The translations under genes were made by a program, and so were the position numbers. The notes beneath the pieces were generated by a model. The model was given only the letters and a program-made list of their open reading frames with translations. It did no database searches and was not told the origin of the DNA. Source: Acholeplasmataceae bacterium (lineage in GTDB: Bacteria > Bacillota_I > Bacilli_A > Acholeplasmatales > Acholeplasmataceae). From it: DNA of 48,168 bases. The stretch covers positions 1 to 48,168 of the forward strand of contig JAIPGC010000004.1 of NCBI GenBank assembly GCA_021736335.1, in the 5' to 3' direction. Of this stretch, positions 5,271-16,371 are shown piece after piece (position 1 is the first letter of the stretch; each line of letters starts with the position of its first letter).

Positions 5271-5528
5271 TTATATGAGATGATTTTCTTTTAAATATTG
5301 TTCAATTTGTTTCATGTGTTCATGGTTTTCAGATTCGATTTTTATCTTAAAGACGGAATCTTTTGCTAAACCCACACTCATGATAGCCATAATTGATTTG
5401 GCATCAGCAACAAAATCTTTATAAATGAGATAAACGGTAAATGGTAATGATGACATAAAACGAACAAAATTAGTTGCTGGTCTTGCATGCAATCCTTGCT
5501 CAGCTTTTAATACAAATTCTTTTTCCAT
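5271..5528 (-). CDS. ptsH: Phosphocarrier protein HPr
   Basis: HPr is the phosphate carrier of the sugar phosphotransferase system, relaying phosphate from enzyme I to EIIA domains. The product is 85 residues, the normal length. His14 in GLHARPA is the phosphorylated histidine. Ser45 in AKSIM occupies the HPr-kinase regulatory site (Ser46 of Bacillus subtilis), so a regulatory HPr(Ser-P) form is possible. GAAGGAG lies upstream of the ATG. An EIIA gene lies 105 bases upstream on the same strand; no enzyme I gene is nearby. Confidence 0.96.
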   Translation of the reverse strand: MEKEFVLKAEQGLHARPATNFVRFMSSLPFTVYLIYKDFVADAKSIMAIMSVGLAKDSVFKIKIESENHEHMKQIEQYLKENHLI

Positions 5529-5633
5529 ATAAACTCCTTCATAACTGATTGATTTTTATTACTACTGCTTTATTTTATCACATTCATCTCTCATTTAACA
5601 TGGAAGTGATACATTCAAGCATATTTCACATGA

Positions 5634-6080
5634 TTACATAATATCTAAAATCATTTCTACAAAATCACCATTGTTATCTATTTTTAAAATCTTCAGGTTA
5701 TCTTTTTGCATAAAAACAACTGGAACATCCATAGAGATAACATTTCTACTTAAAAAATCATAATCAAATGTCAACAATAAGTCTCCTTGTTTAACAGTTT
5801 GATCAACTTCAACAAAAGTATTGATGCCTTGACCTTTTAATTCAACAGTACCAAATCCCAAGTGAATCAAGATATTTATACCAGTTTCATGCTTGATGAC
5901 TATGGCATGTTTTGATGGAAAAATATGAACTACTTTACCATCAATTGGAGCATATAGTTTATGATCAGCAGGATAAATAACAAATCCTTTGCCAACTAAA
6001 TACTGACTAAATGTATCGTCATGAGTCATTGAGACATCATGATGCTCTCCCTTAATGGGAGCTCTATAATTAATAATCAT
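5634..6080 (-). CDS. crr: PTS glucose-type EIIA, free-standing
   Basis: This cytosolic EIIA domain takes phosphate from HPr and passes it to an EIIB. The 148-residue product shows the two active-site histidines 15 residues apart, His58 (SKHAI) and His73 (ILIHLGFGTVELKG), matching His75 and His90 of E. coli EIIA-Glc. The frame remains open to an ATG at 6113, but I place the start at 6080. AAAGG (6088-6092 on minus) sits 7 bases upstream of it, and a -10 TATAAT (6112-6117 on minus) overlaps the alternative start. No EIIB or EIIC permease is linked here, so it either serves a distant permease or acts in regulation. The symbol is by family. Confidence 0.9.
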   Translation of the reverse strand: MIINYRAPIKGEHHDVSMTHDDTFSQYLVGKGFVIYPADHKLYAPIDGKVVHIFPSKHAIVIKHETGINILIHLGFGTVELKGQGINTFVEVDQTVKQGDLLLTFDYDFLSRNVISMDVPVVFMQKDNLKILKIDNNGDFVEMILDIM

Positions 6081-6111
6081 AAGTGAGCCTTTCATATTGC
6101 ATGTCATGTTC

Positions 6112-6117
6112 ATTATA
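6112..6117 (-). promoter_or_regulatory. -10 box of the EIIA gene
   Basis: TATAAT on the minus strand lies about 32 bases upstream of the chosen start. No convincing -35 hexamer is seen. Its position argues against the longer EIIA start at 6113. Confidence 0.45.
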
Positions 6118-6189
6118 ATAGAAATTGATGCGTTTGATTCTTTTTATTTTGATATTACCTTTTCATGAGCAAATTAAACATGTTTTTGT

Positions 6190-6195
6190 TATAAT
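6190..6195 (+). promoter_or_regulatory. -10 box of the mrp gene
   Basis: TATAAT is followed by the ribosome site GAGGTGAG and the ATG at 6215. The -35 region is poor. Confidence 0.4.
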
Positions 6196-6214
6196 AGTTT
6201 TGAGGTGAGTCAAG

Positions 6215-7210
6215 ATGACATATGATGAATTAAGAAGTAGAATAGAAGAAATCATCGACCCAGGATTCAATTTACCATTTAAGGAAGTTAATGGGATAAA
6301 AAAATTAGTAATTGGACCTACAGGTGTTGCTGAATTAGAAATTTATCTAAAAGATAAGGTAAAACATGAGCAAGCTGTAAAAATCCAAATTGTTCGCTTA
6401 GTGAAAATTGAGCTTGGATTTCCTGGAATCAAAATTGATTTCTTTGAATCAGAGTTTGTTCCAGAAGGACAAAAAGCTATTAAGTATTTGGCAATAGCAT
6501 CAGGTAAAGGTGGCGTTGGTAAATCCACTGTTGCTGCCAACTTAGCTGCAGCTATGATCAGACAAGGGAAGAAAGTAGGTATCATCGATGCTGATATCTA
6601 TGGGGCGAGTATTCCATACATCCTAAGATTGCCAATCAAACCTTTAACATCGACTGAAGATGAAAAAATGATTCCACTAGAACAAAATGGAATTCAAGTG
6701 ATATCAACAGAATTTTTCATGCCACCAGAAAAACCAATTATGTGGCGTGGACCTATGTTAGGGAAATTATTAACACATTTCTTCAATGGCGTTGCATGGC
6801 AAGAAGATATTGATTTAATCATTATTGATTTGCCACCTGGAACTGGGGATGTTGCATTAGATGTGAAAACCTATGCACCAACAAGTAAAATTGTTGTTGT
6901 TACAACACCACATCACAATGCATCAAGTATTGCTGTAAAAGCTGGACTAGGTGCACAACAAATAGGACATGAAGTTATCGGTGTTATTGAAAACATGAGT
7001 TATTACTTAAATGAATGCAATCAAAAACGCGAGTTCATCTTTGGATCTGGTGGTGGTGCACTAGTTGCTAAGAAATTGGGAACAAATTTATTAGGTCAAA
7101 TTCCTATTGGACAACCACAACAAGGTCATTTTCTATTTGAAGGTAAAGAAGAAACTGGTAAAATCTATAACGATATAGCAGTCAAATTAATTGAAGAATT
7201 AAATCTATAA
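6215..7210 (+). CDS. mrp: Mrp/ApbC-family P-loop ATPase (Fe-S carrier-like)
   Basis: The Mrp/NBP35 family carries or inserts iron-sulfur clusters in the cytosol. The 331-residue protein has an N-terminal MIP18/DUF59-type domain (residues 1-80), the deviant Walker A GKGGVGKS (97-104), switch I DADIYG, and Walker B IIIDLPPGTGD. The usual CxxC after NMSY, which bridges the cluster between protomers, is not present: the segment reads NMSYYLNECNQKREF and Cys268 is the only cysteine in the protein. It may therefore act without a classic bridging cluster. The gene is monocistronic, with its own -10 box and terminator. Confidence 0.9.
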   Translation: MTYDELRSRIEEIIDPGFNLPFKEVNGIKKLVIGPTGVAELEIYLKDKVKHEQAVKIQIVRLVKIELGFPGIKIDFFESEFVPEGQKAIKYLAIASGKGGVGKSTVAANLAAAMIRQGKKVGIIDADIYGASIPYILRLPIKPLTSTEDEKMIPLEQNGIQVISTEFFMPPEKPIMWRGPMLGKLLTHFFNGVAWQEDIDLIIIDLPPGTGDVALDVKTYAPTSKIVVVTTPHHNASSIAVKAGLGAQQIGHEVIGVIENMSYYLNECNQKREFIFGSGGGALVAKKLGTNLLGQIPIGQPQQGHFLFEGKEETGKIYNDIAVKLIEELNL

Positions 7211-7225
7211 GTACAAATAAAGATT

Positions 7226-7257
7226 AATCCTCTATTTCAGAATAGGGGATTTTTTTA
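7226..7257 (+). terminator. Terminator of mrp
   Basis: AATCCTCTATT (7226-7236) pairs with AATAGGGGATT (7241-7251) with one G-U pair and a TCAG loop, and the stem is followed by T7. Confidence 0.85.
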
Positions 7258-7626
7258 TGCAATATAACTGCATAAAAAATAATTTATTTATATTTATGAA
7301 AATTAATACATTAACGTGGTTGATTTATAAACAATAAAGGAATAAAATTAAGCAGTAGAGACAACTTCGTCGTTTATTTTTAATAAAAGCTTAAAATATC
7401 ACTTTTTTAGGCTAAAAATGGATAGAATCAGACAAAAAAATGACAAATAGGTATTGTGTTACAAACAGTAGTGTGTTATGATTGGTTTAAGCATAAACTG
7501 AAATAAATCTAAATAAAGTTGTATTTCAAGGTCTGATTTATGTATTACACGTTAAATTCATTGCATTTTTAACAATAATAGGAATAGAATGAACAAAAGA
7601 ATATTTTATGGATAGGAGCAGTGCTT
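7258..7626 (+). promoter_or_regulatory. AT-rich leader and promoter region of the opp operon
   Basis: This 370-base gene-free stretch is AT-rich. The best promoter is TTGTGT (7454-7459), a 17-base spacer and TATGAT (7477-7482), predicting a leader of about 135 nt. I see no riboswitch consensus, no convincing hairpin and no coding remnant in the rest of it. Confidence 0.4.
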
Positions 7627-8553
7627 ATGGACTCTAAAATGGTCGTATATGTCGTTAAACGATTATTGCTTGCTGTAGTAACAATATGGCTGATCATTAC
7701 AATAACATTTTTTGTTATGAATGCAATCCCTGGAGGACCATTTTTAAGTGAGAAAGCTGTTACACAAGAAGTCATAGATGCACTGAATGCCAAATACGGT
7801 TTGGATAAACCTCTCATGACTCAGTACTTTACTTATTTGAAAGATATTGTTCAATTTGATTTTGGACCTTCTTTAAAAAGTAGAGGTAGAGATGTAATAG
7901 ATATCATTGCTGAAGGATTCGCGGTTTCAGGTAAATTAGGAATCATTGCAGCTGGTTTAGCAATTGGATTTGGTGTCACCTTTGGATCAATTGCAGCAAT
8001 TTATCGCAATAAATTTATTGATAGTACGATTATGGTTAGCACTACAGCATTTGTAGCGATGCCATCATTTGTTATAGGATCATTCTTGCTTATTGTATTT
8101 TGCGTATATTGGCAAGTATTTCCTGCTAATGGTAGTTTACCGGGAGGTATGTTCTTACCAACAATTGCCCTTGCATTATATCCAATGGCATATATTACCA
8201 GATTAACTAGATCAAGTATGCTAGATGTATTACAACAAGATTATATCCGTACCGCAAGAGCAAAAGGTGTATCAAATTTCTTATTAATATTCAAACATGC
8301 TTTAAAAAATGCACTCATTCCAGTCATTACATATGTAGGACCAATGATTGCTTACATATTAACAGGTAGCTTTGTCGTTGAAAAGATATTTTCAGTCCCA
8401 GGACTTGGAAGAACATTCATTAACTGTATAACCAATAGAGACTATCCAGTTATTATGGGAACTACTATATTTTTAGCAACAATGGTTGTCTTAATGAATC
8501 TAGTATCCGATATTTTATATAAGGCAGTTGACCCAAGAATTGATTTTAGCTAA
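7627..8553 (+). CDS. oppB: Oligopeptide ABC transporter permease OppB
   Basis: This is the first membrane subunit of a peptide importer (DppB/OppB family, binding-protein-dependent). The 308-residue product has a TM helix at residues 10-28 ending in the typical FFVMNAIPGGPF, the conserved LNAKYGLDKPLMTQY loop, further membrane segments, and the EAA-type loop around DYIRTARAKGVSN, which contacts the ATPases. I use the ATG at 7627: AGGAG (7614-7618) is 8 bases upstream of it but only 2 bases from the in-frame GTG at 7621. It is the first gene of oppB-C-D-F-A. Confidence 0.94.
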   Translation: MDSKMVVYVVKRLLLAVVTIWLIITITFFVMNAIPGGPFLSEKAVTQEVIDALNAKYGLDKPLMTQYFTYLKDIVQFDFGPSLKSRGRDVIDIIAEGFAVSGKLGIIAAGLAIGFGVTFGSIAAIYRNKFIDSTIMVSTTAFVAMPSFVIGSFLLIVFCVYWQVFPANGSLPGGMFLPTIALALYPMAYITRLTRSSMLDVLQQDYIRTARAKGVSNFLLIFKHALKNALIPVITYVGPMIAYILTGSFVVEKIFSVPGLGRTFINCITNRDYPVIMGTTIFLATMVVLMNLVSDILYKAVDPRIDFS

Positions 8554-8575
8554 TGAATTTAGTGAGGAAATCTAA

Positions 8576-9667
8576 ATGAAAAATAACAATCTTGATAAAA
8601 AAGTAAAACTATATAATAAACCATTTTCTTTTCATGTTAACGTGGACAGTTTTATACCTGCGACTGCAGAAGAAAGAAGACAACAAATACTTTTAAGAGA
8701 AAGTACCAGTTTTTGGAAAGATGGTTTAAGAAGATTATGGAAAAACAAGGTTGCTATGACTTGTGTCTTTATTCTAACGATCATCATCATCTCTATCATT
8801 GTCATACCCATGGTTTGGCCATACGCATATGATGATCAACTCGGTGTTACACAAGGACAACCAGTGGATCCTTCATTTGCCAATTTAAAACCTTTTCAAT
8901 ATGGAGAGACAGAACTTGAAATTATAGCTGATGGTGGAGATGTTTTTCCTCATATATTTGGAACAGATACAGCAGGTAGAGATTATTTTATTCGTGTGAT
9001 CTATGGTGCTCGTGTTTCACTAGCTGTTGGATTCTTCGCAAGTATTATCGTTTTAATTATAGGAACACTTTATGGATCTATATCAGGATACATTGGAGGG
9101 AAACTCGATTTATTCATGATGCGTATTGTTGATATCATTTATTCACTTCCAGATATGCTGGTCATCATTATACTTTCAGTGGTGCTCAATCAGATCTTTA
9201 AAGACACTCTAGCGAATTCTGTTTTTGCCTCATTAGGGGCGAACATGATTAGTATATTTATTGTATTTGGATTACTTTATTGGGTTGGTATGGCAAGACT
9301 AATTAGAGGACAAATACTCACTCTTAAAGAACAAGATTATGTCTTAGCTGCGAAGTCAATTGGTGCTTCACATGGACGTATCATTAGAAAGCACTTATTA
9401 CCAAACTCCATTAGTGTCATCATCATATCAACTGCTTTACAAATTCCAAGTGCTATTTTTACAGAAAGCTTCCTTAGTTTCTTAGGACTGGGTGTTTCAG
9501 CACCTATGCCTTCGTTAGGATCTCTAGCAAGCAATGCATTAAGTGGTGTTTATAGTTATACTTATCGTTTAATTATTCCAGCTATATTTATTAGCTTAAT
9601 TGTTTTATCACTCAATTTGCTTGGCGATGGATTAAGGGATGCCTTTGATCCAAAAATGAAAGTTTAG
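8576..9667 (+). CDS. oppC: Oligopeptide ABC transporter permease OppC
   Basis: This is the second membrane subunit of the peptide importer. The 363-residue protein has a cytoplasmic N-terminal extension of about 65 residues, a first TM helix (around 62-82), an extracytoplasmic loop with HIFGTDTAGRDYF (a hallmark of DppC/OppC), and the EAA loop EQDYVLAAKSIGASHGRIIRKHLLPN. It ends with the family motif LNLLGDGLRDAFDPK. It lies 22 bases after oppB and 8 bases before oppD. The N-terminal PATAEERRQQ region is longer than in most DppC but common in OppC of Bacillota. Confidence 0.94.
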   Translation: MKNNNLDKKVKLYNKPFSFHVNVDSFIPATAEERRQQILLRESTSFWKDGLRRLWKNKVAMTCVFILTIIIISIIVIPMVWPYAYDDQLGVTQGQPVDPSFANLKPFQYGETELEIIADGGDVFPHIFGTDTAGRDYFIRVIYGARVSLAVGFFASIIVLIIGTLYGSISGYIGGKLDLFMMRIVDIIYSLPDMLVIIILSVVLNQIFKDTLANSVFASLGANMISIFIVFGLLYWVGMARLIRGQILTLKEQDYVLAAKSIGASHGRIIRKHLLPNSISVIIISTALQIPSAIFTESFLSFLGLGVSAPMPSLGSLASNALSGVYSYTYRLIIPAIFISLIVLSLNLLGDGLRDAFDPKMKV

Positions 9668-9675
9668 GTGATGAC

Positions 9676-10686
9676 ATGAGCTTATTAGAAGTTAGAGATT
9701 TAAAAACATCATTTTTAACTGATTCTGGAGAAGTTAAGGCTGTTGACGGCATCTCATTTAATGTCGAAAAAGGAAGAGTATTAGGTATTGTAGGAGAATC
9801 AGGTAGTGGTAAGAGTGTTACAGCATATTCACTGATGCAGATTTTATCCAATCCTGGAAAAATAACTGGTGGAAGTATTAAATTTGATGGAGAAGAACTC
9901 GTTAATGCTGAAAAGAAGGTTCTTCGCAACATAAGAGGCAGCAAAATCAGCATGATCTTTCAAGACCCAATGACAAGTCTTAATCCAGTATTTACAATTG
10001 GTAATCAACTGATTGAAGCCATTATGCTTCATACAGATAGAAACAAGGCTCAAGCAACTGTTCGTGCTATAGAAATGATCAAGCTTGTAGGAATCAATGA
10101 CCCAGAAAAACGGTTAAAACAATATCCACATGAACTATCAGGTGGTATGAGACAACGTGTCATGATAGCTATTGCACTTGCTTGTGAACCCGATATACTT
10201 ATTGCTGATGAACCTACAACAGCATTGGATGTTACCATTCAAGCTCAAATTCTTGAATTAATGAAGAAGCTTCAAAAAGAATTAGGTATGGCAATCATCA
10301 TGGTCACCCACGATTTAGGTGTTATTGTGACGATGTGTGATGAAGTAATCGTTATGTATGCCGGAAAGATTTGTGAAAAAGGAAGTGTAGATGAAATTTT
10401 CTATGATCCTAAACATGAGTATACAAAGGGTTTATTAAAGTCGATACCTTATGGGTCAAAGACTTTAGGGCGTTTGGTACCAATCGAAGGATCACCTGTT
10501 GACATGATGAACATGCCAAAAGGATGTGCTTTTGCTCCACGCTGTAGCAAAGCAATGAAAATATGTTTAGAGCACAAATGTGAAGAGGTTCACCTTTCAG
10601 GAACGCATAGTGCAGCCTGTTGGGTAAACATCAAGGAAAAAATAGATAAAAAAGAAATTGTACCAATTAAGGCAAATGAAGAATAA
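9676..10686 (+). CDS. oppD: Oligopeptide ABC transporter ATPase OppD
   Basis: This is the first of two ATPases of the peptide importer. The 336-residue product has Walker A GESGSGKSV, Q-loop FQDPMTSLNP, signature LSGGMRQRV, Walker B ILIADEPTTALD and the C-terminal oligopeptide-transporter domain with cysteines in GCAFAPRCSKAMKIC. Equivalent cysteine clusters ligate an iron-sulfur cluster in at least one structurally studied dipeptide transporter. TGAG before the ATG is a modest ribosome site, and the gene follows oppC closely. Confidence 0.95.
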   Translation: MSLLEVRDLKTSFLTDSGEVKAVDGISFNVEKGRVLGIVGESGSGKSVTAYSLMQILSNPGKITGGSIKFDGEELVNAEKKVLRNIRGSKISMIFQDPMTSLNPVFTIGNQLIEAIMLHTDRNKAQATVRAIEMIKLVGINDPEKRLKQYPHELSGGMRQRVMIAIALACEPDILIADEPTTALDVTIQAQILELMKKLQKELGMAIIMVTHDLGVIVTMCDEVIVMYAGKICEKGSVDEIFYDPKHEYTKGLLKSIPYGSKTLGRLVPIEGSPVDMMNMPKGCAFAPRCSKAMKICLEHKCEEVHLSGTHSAACWVNIKEKIDKKEIVPIKANEE

Positions 10687-10719
10687 ACTAAGACCTTATG
10701 AGAATTGGAGGTGATGATT

Positions 10720-11706
10720 ATGATTGAAAATGAATCCAAGAAAATTTTAGTAGAAGTTGTTGGGCTTAAACAATATTTTGACATCCAAACAGGTTTTCTA
10801 AAATCAAAAAAACTGAAAGCAGTAGATGGTATTTCCTTTAAAATCAATCAAGGAGAGACCTTAGGTCTAGTAGGTGAATCAGGTTGTGGTAAAACCACAG
10901 CTGGTAGATCTTTATTGCATCTATATGAACCAACTGCTGGCCAGATATTTTTTAATGAACAAGAAATAAAGACAAAAGAAGATATTGAAAATTTTAGACA
11001 AAATGCATCGATGGTATTTCAGGATCCATATTCATCACTGAATCCGAGAATGACCATCGGAGATATCATTGGCGAGCCTTTGGATGTCCATCATTTGTAT
11101 GCTACAAAGGAAGAAAGAAGTGCTCGCATCAGAGAGTTGATGGAACTCGTTGGTTTATCAAGCGAACATGCTACAAGATATGCACATGAATTTAGTGGAG
11201 GGCAACGACAAAGAGTTGGTATTGCTAGAGCTTTGGCTGTTAGCCCACAACTGATTGTATGTGACGAACCTGTATCAGCATTAGATGTATCCATCCAAGC
11301 TCAAATCATTAATATGTTTGAAGATTTACAAGCTAAACTTGGACTTACCTATTTGTTCATTGCACATGATTTATTGGTTGTAAGACATATCAGCGATAAA
11401 ATCGCTGTCATGTATCTAGGTGAAATTGTTGAAACTGCTTATACAGAGGAATTATTTAAATCACCACTTCATCCATACACCAAATCATTGATGTCTGCAG
11501 TACCTTCACCAGATCCAAAGACTGCAAGAACATCACAACGTATTGTTTTAACAGGTGATGTTCCAAGTCCACTAGCAAAACCAAGTGGATGTCCGTTTAG
11601 AACAAGATGTCCTCAGGCTCATGAAAGATGCATATCTGAAAAGCCTGAATTAAGAGAGATAACTGCAGATCATTTTGCGAGTTGTCATTTATTAGATGAT
11701 TTATAA
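10720..11706 (+). CDS. oppF: Oligopeptide ABC transporter ATPase OppF
   Basis: This is the second ATPase of the importer, pairing with OppD. The 328-residue product has Walker [11 protein letters not shown]-loop [11 protein letters not shown], signature FSGGQRQRV, Walker [13 protein letters not shown] and a C-terminal cysteine cluster ([15 protein letters not shown]). The region contains in-frame TTG, GTG and ATG codons from 10705 on. The ATG at 10720 is preferred because GGAGG (10707-10711) sits 8 bases before it, while the ATG at 10714 would be too close. Confidence 0.95.
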
Positions 11707-11751
11707 AATCTAGAGCATTTTAGGTTTTAAAATAAAAAGGAGAGAGGAAAT

Positions 11752-13536
11752 ATGAAAAAAATTGGTTTATTAGTTTTATCGCTAGCACTAGTTTTAGTTT
11801 TATTCGGTTGCAACAAACCTGGTAGCGAATCAGTAAAAACAGTTGATAATTCAGAAGCTGAAATTTACTCAATGGATTTATCTGATATTCCAGGATACGA
11901 AAGTTATGTTGTAACAAATGGTACTTGGGCTGAAACATATGATGTCATTATCGGTTTATCAAGACTCGAAACAGATGCAGTCAAGAGAACGGCATTATAT
12001 CATGCAGCAGAAGATTTATTGATGTTTACTGGAATGATTGTTCCATTGTACTACTATACTGACTTATTTATGGCAGCTACAGGAGTTGATGGAGTCTTTA
12101 CAACACCAACCAGTATTAAGATTTTTAAGTTTGCTACGATTGACGATGTAGGAACTAACATGAATATTTGTCTTGCTTCCGAGCCAGATACAATCGATCC
12201 TGCACTTAATAGTTCTGTTGATGGTGCTACATACATCACACATGCATTTTCTGCACTTACAGGATACAATGCTGACAATCAGCTTGTAGCAGATTTAGCT
12301 GTAGCTATACCAACACCTACTGAAAATCTTGACGGAACAGTTACTTATGTATTTGAACTAAGAACAGGTCTTAAATGGTCAGATGGTTCAGCATTAACAG
12401 CTGCAGATTTTGAATATTCTTGGAGACGCGCAGCTGCTGATGAAACAGCTTCAGATTATGGTTACCTATTCTCAATTATTGATGGTTATGATGATGGTGA
12501 TCTAAATATTGATGCAGTTGATGCAACTCATTTTTCGGTAACATTAAATGTTGATGTTCCTTACTTTTTAGAATTGATAAGCAATCCAACATTTATGCCA
12601 GTTAAACAATCAATCGTTGAAGCTGATCCAGATGGATGGGCAACAGATCCAGCAACTTATATTACAAATGGTGCTTATTATGTTAGTTCATGGGATCACA
12701 ATTCAAAGATCGTTTTGACAAAGAATGATGAGTATTGGAATGCAGATTCTATCGTCATGGAACAATTAACTTTCTGGTTATCAGATGATGATATTGCTAT
12801 TCTATCTAATTTCAAGAGTGGTACATATGATTTCATTGACAATGTTCCAAATGATGAAATTGCAGATTTGAAAGTGAATTATGCAGATGAATTCTTTATC
12901 ACTGGTCAATTAGGTACATATTTTACTGTATTCAGTAATAATAAAGACTTACTTCCATCAAAAGTTTCTGAAGATATGACCGCTGAAGAAAATTTACTTG
13001 CTAACATGGAAATTCGCAAAGCTTTATCTTTACTCCTTGACCGCAACTACATTGTTGAAGAAATCGGTCAAGCAGGACAACTTCCAGCATCATCTTATGT
13101 TGCTATGGGTATTACAAATGCTGATGGATCACAATTTTATCTAAGTGCAGGACATTCATCTAGTTTTATCGGATACTATAATACAGCAGCAAGCGCATAT
13201 GCTGCAAACTGTGCAGAAGCAGTTGAAATATTGAAACAATACTTTGAATATGATGAAGATACAGATAAGTTTACAAACTTCACTACATTTGATTATCTAT
13301 TCAATACAAGTACTGGACACCAAGCAATTGCTGAATATATCCAAGCTGCATTTGAAGCATATGGTATCAATATCACATTGGTCAATCAAGAATGGGGAAC
13401 TTTCCTTAACACTAGAAAGAATGGTGAATACACATTTGCTCGTAGTGGTTGGTTAGGTGACTTTAATGATGCAATCACATTCCTTGATATGTGGACATCT
13501 GATTCTGGTAACAATGATGCTCAATTTGGTAAATAA
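11752..13536 (+). CDS. oppA: Peptide-binding lipoprotein OppA, apparently circularly permuted
   Basis: This is the extracellular SBP_bac_5 receptor for the OppBCDF importer. The 594-residue protein starts with a lipoprotein signal (lipobox LFGC, Cys20), but what follows is out of family order. Residues about 43-128 (GTWAETYD, ALYHAAEDLL, IVPLYYYTDLF) are the segment normally found at the C-terminus of OppA. The usual mature N-terminus (LASEPDTIDPALNSSVDG) begins only near residue 140. The protein then runs through the normal order, including LRTGLKWSDG, and stops at WTSDSGNNDAQFGK, exactly where the relocated segment would normally follow. Total length is that of one ordinary OppA, so this is a permutation and not a duplication. 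It is the last gene of the operon, 45 bases after oppF, with AGGAGAGAGG upstream. Confidence 0.9.
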   Translation: MKKIGLLVLSLALVLVLFGCNKPGSESVKTVDNSEAEIYSMDLSDIPGYESYVVTNGTWAETYDVIIGLSRLETDAVKRTALYHAAEDLLMFTGMIVPLYYYTDLFMAATGVDGVFTTPTSIKIFKFATIDDVGTNMNICLASEPDTIDPALNSSVDGATYITHAFSALTGYNADNQLVADLAVAIPTPTENLDGTVTYVFELRTGLKWSDGSALTAADFEYSWRRAAADETASDYGYLFSIIDGYDDGDLNIDAVDATHFSVTLNVDVPYFLELISNPTFMPVKQSIVEADPDGWATDPATYITNGAYYVSSWDHNSKIVLTKNDEYWNADSIVMEQLTFWLSDDDIAILSNFKSGTYDFIDNVPNDEIADLKVNYADEFFITGQLGTYFTVFSNNKDLLPSKVSEDMTAEENLLANMEIRKALSLLLDRNYIVEEIGQAGQLPASSYVAMGITNADGSQFYLSAGHSSSFIGYYNTAASAYAANCAEAVEILKQYFEYDEDTDKFTNFTTFDYLFNTSTGHQAIAEYIQAAFEAYGINITLVNQEWGTFLNTRKNGEYTFARSGWLGDFNDAITFLDMWTSDSGNNDAQFGK

Positions 13537-13578
13537 ACATTATCCAAATTAAAATTTACGCTTTAGAATCAAATTGAT

Positions 13579-13615
13579 AAAAAATCCCAACTCGAGTTTA
13601 GAGTTGGGATTTTTC
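13579..13615. terminator. Bidirectional terminator between oppA and gcvPB
   Basis: AAAAATCCCAACTC pairs with GAGTTGGGATTTTT (arms within 13579-13593 and 13601-13614) around a 7-base loop, with T runs on both strands. It serves the convergent oppA and gcvPB ends. Confidence 0.9.
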
Positions 13616-15061
13616 TTATTTGATATCCTTGAATTTAACAATTGGATTTCTTGCTGCCTTGACTTCATCAAGTCTTCTTACGATGGTGTTATGAGGCGCA
13701 GTTTTTAACATTTCTGGATCTTCAATGGCTTCTTTTGCTACAATTCTCATGACATGAATGAATTCATCTAATGTTTGTTTGGATTCAACTTCTGTAGGTT
13801 CTATCATCATCGATTGGGAGAATATGAGTGGGAAGTAAATTGTTGGAGCATGGAATCCATAATCCAATAATCTTTTGGCAAGATCTAGTGTTCTTACACC
13901 AGTTGAGTTATCCTTGAGTCCATCAAAAACAAACTCATGCATACATGGACGATCAATTGGAAGCACAAATAGATCTTTAAGTGAATCCTTGATATAATTT
14001 GCATTAAGAACTGCTAAAGGTCCGATGTCACTCATGTTTTCTTTGCCTAAGGTCATCATATAGACATAAGCTCTGATATAAACACTTGCATTGCCATAAA
14101 ACTGTCCTAATGCCCCTATAGAGTCATTTGAGTTCTCAAAGAAGTAGAAGCCATCTTTTTCCTTAACAATCGGATTAGGAAGGAAATTGATGAGTTTTTC
14201 ACAAACACCAACTGGACCAGATCCTGGACCGCCACCACCATGTGGTGTGGAAAATGTCTTATGTAAATTAATATGTGTAATATCAAAACCCATATCACCA
14301 GGTTTAGCTTTACCTAATAGGGCATTTAAATTAGCTCCATCATAATAAAGTAATCCACCTGCTTCATGAACTAATCTTGATACTTCTAAAATGTCTTTTT
14401 CAAAGACACCTGCAGTATTAGGGTTTGTAAGCATCAAACCAGCAATCTCATCATTGAGAACTGCCTTTAGAGCTTCTAAATTGACTGTTCCATCAGGATT
14501 AGATTTGATTTCAACTGTATCAAATCCACAAACTGTTGCACTTGCTGGATTGGTTCCATGTGCACTATCTGGGACAATGATCTTATTTCTTTTGTGATCA
14601 TTGTTTTTTTGATGATAAGCCTTGATAATCATTAGACCAGCGAGTTCACCATGTGCACCTGCAAATGGATTTAAAGAATAAGCTGCTAATCCGGATATTT
14701 CTGACAACATTTTTTGAGTGTCATGATAAATATTTAATAATCCTTGAACTGTTTCAACAGGTTGTAATGGATGAATATTAGCAAAACCAGAAAGAGTTGC
14801 TAACTCATCATTTATTTTCGGATTATATTTCATAGTGCAAGATCCAAGAGGATAGAATCCTGTTTCAACACCAAAATTCTTTTGACTGACATTTGTATAA
14901 TGTCTGACGACATCAAATTCGGATACTTCGGGTAGCTCAGCCTTTTGGTCTCTTGTGATTTCTTTAGGGAGATGAACTTTAGGAAGATTCTTTTTCTCTA
15001 AATGATAACCGATACGGTTTTCTTCTGATATTTCAAATATCAATTGATCATAGTATTTCAT
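13616..15061 (-). CDS. gcvPB: Glycine dehydrogenase (decarboxylating) subunit 2
   Basis: This is the PLP-binding half of the split P-protein, which decarboxylates glycine and passes the aminomethyl group to lipoyl-GcvH. The 481-residue product has the PLP lysine, Lys268, in INLHKTFSTPHGGGG, and the family segments GFYPLGSCTMKYNP and DSAHGTNPASA. Its ATG overlaps the gcvPA stop by 4 bases (ATGA), as expected for stoichiometric translation. It is the last gene of the gcv operon. Confidence 0.97.
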   Translation of the reverse strand: MKYYDQLIFEISEENRIGYHLEKKNLPKVHLPKEITRDQKAELPEVSEFDVVRHYTNVSQKNFGVETGFYPLGSCTMKYNPKINDELATLSGFANIHPLQPVETVQGLLNIYHDTQKMLSEISGLAAYSLNPFAGAHGELAGLMIIKAYHQKNNDHKRNKIIVPDSAHGTNPASATVCGFDTVEIKSNPDGTVNLEALKAVLNDEIAGLMLTNPNTAGVFEKDILEVSRLVHEAGGLLYYDGANLNALLGKAKPGDMGFDITHINLHKTFSTPHGGGGPGSGPVGVCEKLINFLPNPIVKEKDGFYFFENSNDSIGALGQFYGNASVYIRAYVYMMTLGKENMSDIGPLAVLNANYIKDSLKDLFVLPIDRPCMHEFVFDGLKDNSTGVRTLDLAKRLLDYGFHAPTIYFPLIFSQSMMIEPTEVESKQTLDEFIHVMRIVAKEAIEDPEMLKTAPHNTIVRRLDEVKAARNPIVKFKDIK

Positions 15062-16371
15062 AGCTGTTCCACCACCTTTTGCACAAGATGATCCATTTCT
15101 TCAATTGTTCGTCTTTCTGTGACTGCGAATAATAAAAGATTATCTCCAAGATGAAGAGGTCCTAAAATACCATCTGAAAGGAGTGATTTTTCGAAAGCAG
15201 CTACATCAAATTTAGCTTTTAGTGTAAATTCTTTGAAGAATGGTTCATTGCTAATCATTTCAAACTTATTAGTATCTAAAAGTTTTTGATAGAGGTAATG
15301 AGCACCTTGCATAGATTCAGTTGCAACATCAATTAAGCCTTGTTTGCCCATCGTAGATAGGTAAATTGTCACAGCTAATGCCATTAACGATTGGTTTGAG
15401 CATATATTCGAATTTGCTTTTGCACGTCTGATGTGTTGTTCTCTTGCTTGCAAGGTTAACACAAATGCGCGTTTGCCATCAACATCTGTGGTAACACCAC
15501 AGATTCTTCCTGGCATTTTTCTAACAAATTGATTGAGCGTGGCTAGATATCCACCATATGCTCCTCCAAATGATAAAGGAAGCCCAAATGATTGAAGATC
15601 ACCACATGCGATATCAGCATGATATGCTCCAGGTGTCTTGAGGAGTGCTAAGGATTGTCCTTCAGCATTCATGATGAACATGCCATCATGAGCATGAACA
15701 ACTTCAGCAAATCCTTCATAATTTTCAATAACACCAAAATAATTAGGATTTTGAACAATCAACCCCATAGAATCTTGCATATTATTCTTTATAAAATTCA
15801 AATCAGTTATAAAATTTTTTTGAGGAACGATAACGACTTCAATGTTTCTATATTTAGCATAAGTTTGAACGACTTCAATGATTCTTGGATTGACTGTTTC
15901 ACTGATTAAAATCTTATCCTTACCAGTTTGAGCCTTTGCCATAAACATTGCTTCAGCAGTAGAAGTTGCACCATCATACATGGATGCATTAGATACTTCC
16001 ATACCAGTAAGTTCACAAATCATCGATTGATATTCAAAAATATACTGAAGAGTGCCTTGTGCAACCTCAGGTTGATAAGGTGTATATGAAGTTAAAAATT
16101 CTTGACGGCTGATCAAGCTTTTTACCACACTTGGTGTGTAATGATCATAACTTCCAGCTCCTCTAAAGATTATAAGCTCTTGATTAAAAGAAGCTAAAGC
16201 TTTCATATGTTTGGTCAGATTATCATCTGATAGGGCACTTGGAATATCATAAGGGTTTTTCAAACGTAATGCCTTTGGAATAGACACAAATAAGTCATCA
16301 ATGGTTTCCACCTTTGAGACTAAAAGCATCTGTTCTATATCTTTATCTGTATGAGGCAGGTATTTATGCAT
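15058..16371 (-). CDS. gcvPA: Glycine dehydrogenase (decarboxylating) subunit 1
   Basis: This is the other half of the split P-protein, forming a heterotetramer with GcvPB. The 437-residue product begins MHKYLPHTDKDIEQML and carries the characteristic GAGSYDHYTPSVV and SYTPYQPEVAQGTLQ segments. It has no PLP lysine, as expected for this subunit. It starts 8 bases after gcvH and ends in the 4-base overlap with gcvPB. Confidence 0.96.
   Translation of the reverse strand: MHKYLPHTDKDIEQMLLVSKVETIDDLFVSIPKALRLKNPYDIPSALSDDNLTKHMKALASFNQELIIFRGAGSYDHYTPSVVKSLISRQEFLTSYTPYQPEVAQGTLQYIFEYQSMICELTGMEVSNASMYDGATSTAEAMFMAKAQTGKDKILISETVNPRIIEVVQTYAKYRNIEVVIVPQKNFITDLNFIKNNMQDSMGLIVQNPNYFGVIENYEGFAEVVHAHDGMFIMNAEGQSLALLKTPGAYHADIACGDLQSFGLPLSFGGAYGGYLATLNQFVRKMPGRICGVTTDVDGKRAFVLTLQAREQHIRRAKANSNICSNQSLMALAVTIYLSTMGKQGLIDVATESMQGAHYLYQKLLDTNKFEMISNEPFFKEFTLKAKFDVAAFEKSLLSDGILGPLHLGDNLLLFAVTERRTIEEMDHLVQKVVEQL

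Follow-up and report, generated by a model that had tools for sequence, protein, structure and literature searches.

The window (the whole stretch of DNA analysed here, 48,168 nucleotides from an Acholeplasmataceae bacterium) carries on its forward strand a frame at 11752-13536 that encodes an OppA protein of 594 amino acids. The gene stands at the end of an opp operon, as the initial annotation had claimed: the four frames directly upstream are ones which we take to be oppB, oppC, oppD and oppF. Past the oppA stop codon lie a T-tailed inverted repeat and a convergent gene. The protein is a member of SBP family 5 (Pfam SBP_bac_5, PF00496), scoring 219.3 bits against a cut-off of 32.4 in a match that covers residues 192-588 only. 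Against the OppA equivalog of NCBIfam, PRK15104, it reached 216.1 bits, below the equivalog cut-off of 947, and is thus a relative and not that equivalog. The features of the locus are collected in Table 1.

Table 1. Features of the opp locus and segments of the OppA protein, in window coordinates.
Feature	Position	Strand	Basis
oppB, oppC, oppD, oppF (permease and ATPase genes)	7621..11706	+	frames directly upstream of oppA
Signal peptide with lipobox-like LFGC (Cys20)	11752..11811	+	translation, by eye
New N-terminal linker, residues 21-31	11812..11844	+	unmatched by the profile, between Cys20 and the relocated segment
Relocated C-terminal segment, residues 32-130 (profile 476-572)	11845..12141	+	89 bits; weaker against PDB OppA chains
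Junction of ~5 residues, old C-terminus to old mature N-terminus	12142..12156	+	gap between profile 572 and 2
N-terminal and middle part, residues 136-594 (profile 2-474), ending SGNNDAQFGK	12157..13533	+	649 bits; Pfam SBP_bac_5 at 192-588
Inverted repeat with T-run behind the stop codon, terminator-like	13580..13614	+	by eye

We built a profile of 573 positions from 16 relatives with ordinary segment order. Residues 32-130 of the window protein match profile positions 476-572 with 89 bits, and residues 136-594 match positions 2-474 of the same profile with 649 bits. Both parts are homologous to the reference and stand in swapped order, which meets the profile test for a circular permutant. 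The cut falls at 474|476, with neither gap nor overlap. The results show that the protein is a natural circular permutant, with the tail segment first and the head segment second, and that no part of OppA is missing or doubled. A Pfam search does not reveal the rotation, and the protein appears there as an ordinary SBP_bac_5. Searches of the PDB with phmmer also returned swapped pieces: residues 135-590 match positions 20-450 of 8are and residues 63-124 match positions 457-518, while in 1b05 residues 190-451 and 511-592 match 64-319 and 359-441, and residues 63-114 match 446-497. The relocated piece is weak against these chains, scoring 15.2, 13.4 and 7.1 bits in three alignments.

The relocated segment carries a loop insert and the motifs TWAETYD and VPLYYYTD. 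The junction behind it is coding, without stop or signal peptide, and is contiguous in eight aligned proteins. Cys20 is invariant in five aligned proteins of the window's break-point type (type A, below); by the lipobox rule, F at -2 is atypical. The initial annotation, made from sequence alone, had proposed a circularly permuted OppA of unit length, with a lipobox cysteine behind the signal peptide and a relocated segment of C-terminal nature, and all of this held. Its boundaries, residues 43-128 for the segment and about 140 for the old N-terminus, were slightly off and right in substance, the profile giving 32-130 and 136. Two observations that would have refuted it failed to occur: the relocated segment is not collinear with ordinary N-termini in the profile, and a six-frame search of the window found no other oppA piece, hence no second C-terminal segment. 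As a weak control, the profile assigned 31 of 70 oppA-like frames to the permuted class and left 39 outside it; the 39 include the profile's own 16 seeds as well as L248, which is half of a frame-broken permuted gene. AlphaFold2 models were of low confidence, with a pLDDT of 47.7 for the window protein (an alignment of only 5 rows) and 49.2 for a type-B protein (only 4 rows).

That the N-terminal segment is unrelated or recruited, the true C-terminus having been lost, is virtually ruled out: the PDB alignments shown do score it at only 7-15 bits, but it obtains 89 bits against the C-terminal end of its own subfamily, on which ground we rejected C-terminal loss plus a foreign domain, its end and start meet at 474|476, and permutants of types B and C (below) show equal complementarity of their parts.

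Another objection is misassembly, in which a tandem oppA pair was collapsed or rearranged in a metagenome assembly. The window's assembly consists of 99 contigs at 85% completeness, and tandem oppA arrays do exist. Against this, diverged sequences in other genomes carry the same rotation: it is collinear over residues 1-594 in G005 (95% identity) and G022 (63%), and recurs in the records SZUA-431, Zod_Metabat.734 and Reindeer_2_mag_61. Permuted oppA genes also lie on near-whole-genome contigs, of 3,122,901 bp in G1324 and 3,135,972 bp in G1051. The coding junction speaks against misassembly as well, and so does selection. The dN/dS ratio is 0.082 for the window gene and that of G005; four more close pairs of permuted genes gave 0.048, 0.050, 0.095 and 0.086, showing that permuted oppA genes are under purifying selection. 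No raw reads of this genome were available; since other assemblies and genome-sized contigs show the same order, a collapsed tandem pair is excluded as a general explanation, and we regard misassembly as very improbable.

The rotation is neither unique to this genome nor local, which goes beyond the initial annotation. Three classified sets contributed 31, 10 and 10 permuted frames, in total 51 frames in 45 genomes; these include an identical pair (G325, G524), several near-copies and seven frames of one genome (G1561), and leave out the split genes of G203 and G1043. Among the matches returned by a fused-junction profile, those crossing the junction came from 15 of 394 genomes in the order of G116 (in one of the 15, G203, the match is split over two frames), from 10 of 248 genomes in the order of G113, including a partial match of G731, and from 2 of 296 genomes in the window's class. 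A second, broader profile matched 10 of 391 genomes in the class of G116; in the window's phylum it matched 4 of 392. The count of 2 in 296 is an undercount, because G761 and G812, among the last four, were probably missed in the class search. A full-length profile matched 3 of 88 genomes of the window's family. The searched genome sets overlap. In G203 (L248 / L170) and G1043 (L364) a permuted oppA runs over two frames, by decay or sequencing error.

Four break points, types A to D, were found among the permuted proteins. Type A proteins of the window's clade are cut at 474|476; those of another, divergent clade are cut at 474|492-503 and lack most of the loop insert. Type B proteins end at profile positions 333-382 and start at 371-390, and type C proteins end mostly at 277-285 and start at 279-297. 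Type D, starting at 537, rests on a single protein (G731), whose moved piece scores 18 bits. On OppA 1b05 the breaks correspond to about 443 (A; the window protein is opened between 441 and 446), 357 (B), 280-286 (C) and 478 (D), types B, C and D having been placed partly by hand via other chains. Published boundaries place domain III of OppA at 270-486 and assign both chain ends to domain I (PMC6305025). Thus the breaks found all open domain III. None was found in domains I-II, though cuts across most of these two domains should be within reach of the junction profile; the design has little power for breaks that lie ~75 residues or less from the old ends. By a rough, post hoc hand estimate that takes 1b05 75-446 as detectable, 11 events would all fall in domain III by chance with a probability of ~0.0003. 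Three very divergent type-A permutants, L225, L226 and L227, were also seen.

We examined how often the rotation arose by restoring permuted sequences to ordinary order and building trees. A careful 52-row tree has 7 changes of state, where the minimum possible is 3. In it the window's type-A clade of six rows is supported at 99/91, and the type-C gene of G186 nests within ordinary-order genes, at 98/92 with its ordinary sister. The tests rejected a single clade for the permuted rows as a whole and for types A and C; for B they did not (p 0.28). A quick tree of 110 rows has at least 14 changes of rotation state, the minimum possible being 4. Its well-supported branches force 11 changes when ordinary order is set against the rest and, by type, 5 for C, 4 for B and 2 for A; a single clade was rejected for B and for C. 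This tree and its clade tests used a quick method without bootstrap, and long branches are present. The counted changes do not separate gain from reversal. The 67-row set left out L187, L237 and L248, and the 52-row tree dropped a further 15 of the 67 rows, namely the long permuted L225, L226, L227 and L258 and 11 distant ordinary ones. Left out of the 110-row tree were the partial or frame-broken L187, L248, L279, L284, L287, L310 and L364, twice-fetched loci, the near-copies L049, L050 and L244, the ordinary L036 and L038, and L237; the type of L354, whose start the profile missed, was assigned by hand. Recurrence is shown, and we consider it very likely, as part of the whole explanation, that OppA in Bacillota underwent many independent rotations at four places in domain III.

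The youngest rotation bears on the route of origin. In G186 the type-C gene (L246) encodes a protein that is 84.6% identical, over 557 amino acids, to the product of the ordinary-order gene L233 of G735; the swapped order is shown at the DNA level for this pair alone. A collinear block comprising oppF and the signal-peptide start (75% identity) is followed by two swapped blocks of 79-80% identity: L246 10713-11554 aligns with L233 9542-10383 (842 bp), and L246 11567-12376 with L233 8713-9522 (810 bp). The L246 junction, CTV-PTGSS-ISV, resembles what is left of an N-terminal linker of ordinary type (TGEPSSIAV), which is what a fusion of two copies with loss of the second signal peptide should leave behind. 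Directly behind the gene lies a truncated 3' oppA piece (12457-13101), the only extra oppA piece beside the 31 permuted frames searched for duplication leftovers. It is 62% identical to the matching L233 DNA and, judged by eye, looks like part of a different oppA paralogue.

This pair is our best evidence for an inferred route of three steps: oppA would be duplicated in tandem, both copies would be fused in frame, and the fusion would be trimmed, so that the chain would then begin anew after the original signal peptide and end at a different stop. In G429 (L260, G429:C50:88000-107000) one opp operon is followed by three ordinary-order oppA genes in tandem, and G1561 has five tandem permuted type-C genes (L352, G1561:C13:44000-63000, frames 5340-15490) and, elsewhere in the genome, two more permuted copies, L353 and L354. 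Thus oppA copies do arise. No fused double-length oppA was seen among the frames searched, and the route is therefore without a direct witness; a 961-amino-acid frame in G547 (L237) was rejected as a fusion, being an open frame upstream of a normal start. The initial annotation's proposal of tandem duplication followed by truncation accordingly remains an inference.

Gene context, conserved contact residues and purifying selection point to function as a peptide receptor, for which we have no binding data. Homologues of oppBCDF adjoin 41 of the 51 permuted frames: directly upstream in 29 of 31 in the first set; beside all 10 in the second, where oppA precedes oppB in 4 and oppBCDF is on the opposite strand in 2; and upstream in 2 of 10 in the third. 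In the fetched stretches, full oppBCDF was not found for the other 8 frames of the third set (G1561, G1555), the five tandem genes of L352 included, nor for L226 and L227, of which L226 starts 587 bases from a contig end. Some permuted proteins may therefore serve no permease of this kind. A docking study lists H371, R404, R413, W416 and D419 of OppA among the peptide contacts (PMC6305025). They align with H523, R555, R564, W567 and D570 of the window protein, each invariant in alignment A4 (five of the listed contacts were examined). The window protein is most likely the working receptor of the adjoining OppBCDF importer; binding, transport and the bilobed Venus-flytrap fold of the family are inferred.

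In the structure we propose, the old ends, both in domain I, would be joined by ~5 residues, and the chain would be opened in domain III (lobe 2) instead. That both ends pack in lobe I, as had been suggested, fits the published boundaries of domain I (PMC6305025). The binding cleft would keep its key residues, and the anchored N-terminus would enter via lobe 2, not lobe 1, so that an anchor there should tether the protein by lobe 2. This change of tether is inferred. L193 and L194, two permutants from the divergent type-A clade, have no cysteine in the signal region. Thus anchoring cannot be the reason for rotation everywhere, which argues against a single adaptive reason. In another permuted protein, L196, the signal-region cysteine stands in an unusual setting.

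Two readings of why the rotation occurred remain. Selection may have favoured the rotation because lobe 2, in place of lobe 1, then carries the membrane anchor and is exported first. In favour of this reading, the breaks found map to domain III (1b05 ~280, 357, 443 and 478) and none to domains I-II, and a published model of a related importer has one of the permease subunits touching lobe 2 (PMC11192437). Against it, functional data are absent, some members lack the signal-region cysteine, and breaks near the old ends easily escape detection. Its bolder form, in which repeated rotation at four hot-spot loops of lobe 2 is a convergent adaptation, is likewise no more than possible; if true, each rotation alters how the receptor is presented to its permease. 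Alternatively, the rotation may be neutral: loops tolerate new termini, tandem duplication supplies the material, and the anchor moves without benefit. Support comes from the tandem oppA arrays (one of three ordinary genes, one of five permuted ones), from the operon position that permuted and ordinary proteins share, and from L193 and L194, which have no signal-region cysteine; against it, independent rotations have recurred at the same places, each of them in domain III. On balance we lean slightly towards the neutral reading. The explanation as a whole, a permuted receptor rotated recurrently by way of duplication, is very likely, though fold, peptide binding, anchor move and route are inferred parts of it.

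The window protein resembles OppA (1b05, 8are; PF00496) in family, segments, operon partners and the five aligned contact residues, and differs in that its segments are rotated and its termini lie in domain III and not in domain I. Circular permutation, its origin by duplication and one permuted binding protein of another family are already known. The last is TpMglB-2 (Tp0684) of Treponema pallidum, a circularly permuted glucose-binding lipoprotein whose homologues of like topology occur mostly in treponemes and Gram-positive bacteria (PMC4990184). It is likewise a tethered ABC-type binding protein, and it binds its ligand (PMC4990184). In contrast to permuted OppA, it belongs to a Type I / cluster B sugar-binding family, has one described topology and shows poor similarity in the moved part; permuted OppA is of peptide-binding family 5, with four break points and repeated, partly young events. 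The TpMglB-2 group itself (Type Ic / cluster Bc, with the first N-lobe strands moved to the C-terminus) was rejected as a home for the window protein, which is of SBP family 5. Permutation by duplication has been described for saposin/swaposin and DNA methyltransferases (PMC3320104). The route is alike (duplication, fusion, new start and stop), whereas permuted OppA offers many events in one family and one pair comparable as DNA. We found no paper on permuted OppA by title or abstract start in the open-access literature searched, subscription papers lying mostly and preprints wholly outside it.

Natural circular permutation is mostly known from single, old pairs. What is unusual in permuted OppA is repeated origin at four places, with ~11 well-supported changes of rotation state in one family. 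It forms an unusually good natural record of proteins re-cut without loss. Pairs as close as 84.6% open the debated routes, duplication-and-trimming against fission-and-fusion, to DNA comparison, and matched natural pairs allow one to ask how termini, folding order and anchor position affect a binding protein.

The history of the window's operon extends beyond oppA. Its OppBCDF proteins share 78-84% identity with their counterparts in three further genomes of type A (L035, L043 and L046), of which L035, from G022, belongs to another genus of the window's family. With the counterparts in four operons of ordinary order from the window's own genus (L036, L037, L038 and L040), identity is only 47-56%. 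Therefore the whole operon has a different history, and transfer of the opp operon is likely, as inferred from these identities alone. The window's genome also has a second opp-like locus (L041, G000:C21:95000-112000), in which the OppD and OppF matches are broken by a few hundred bases, and the same contig carries two very long SBP frames, of 945 and 1067 amino acids.
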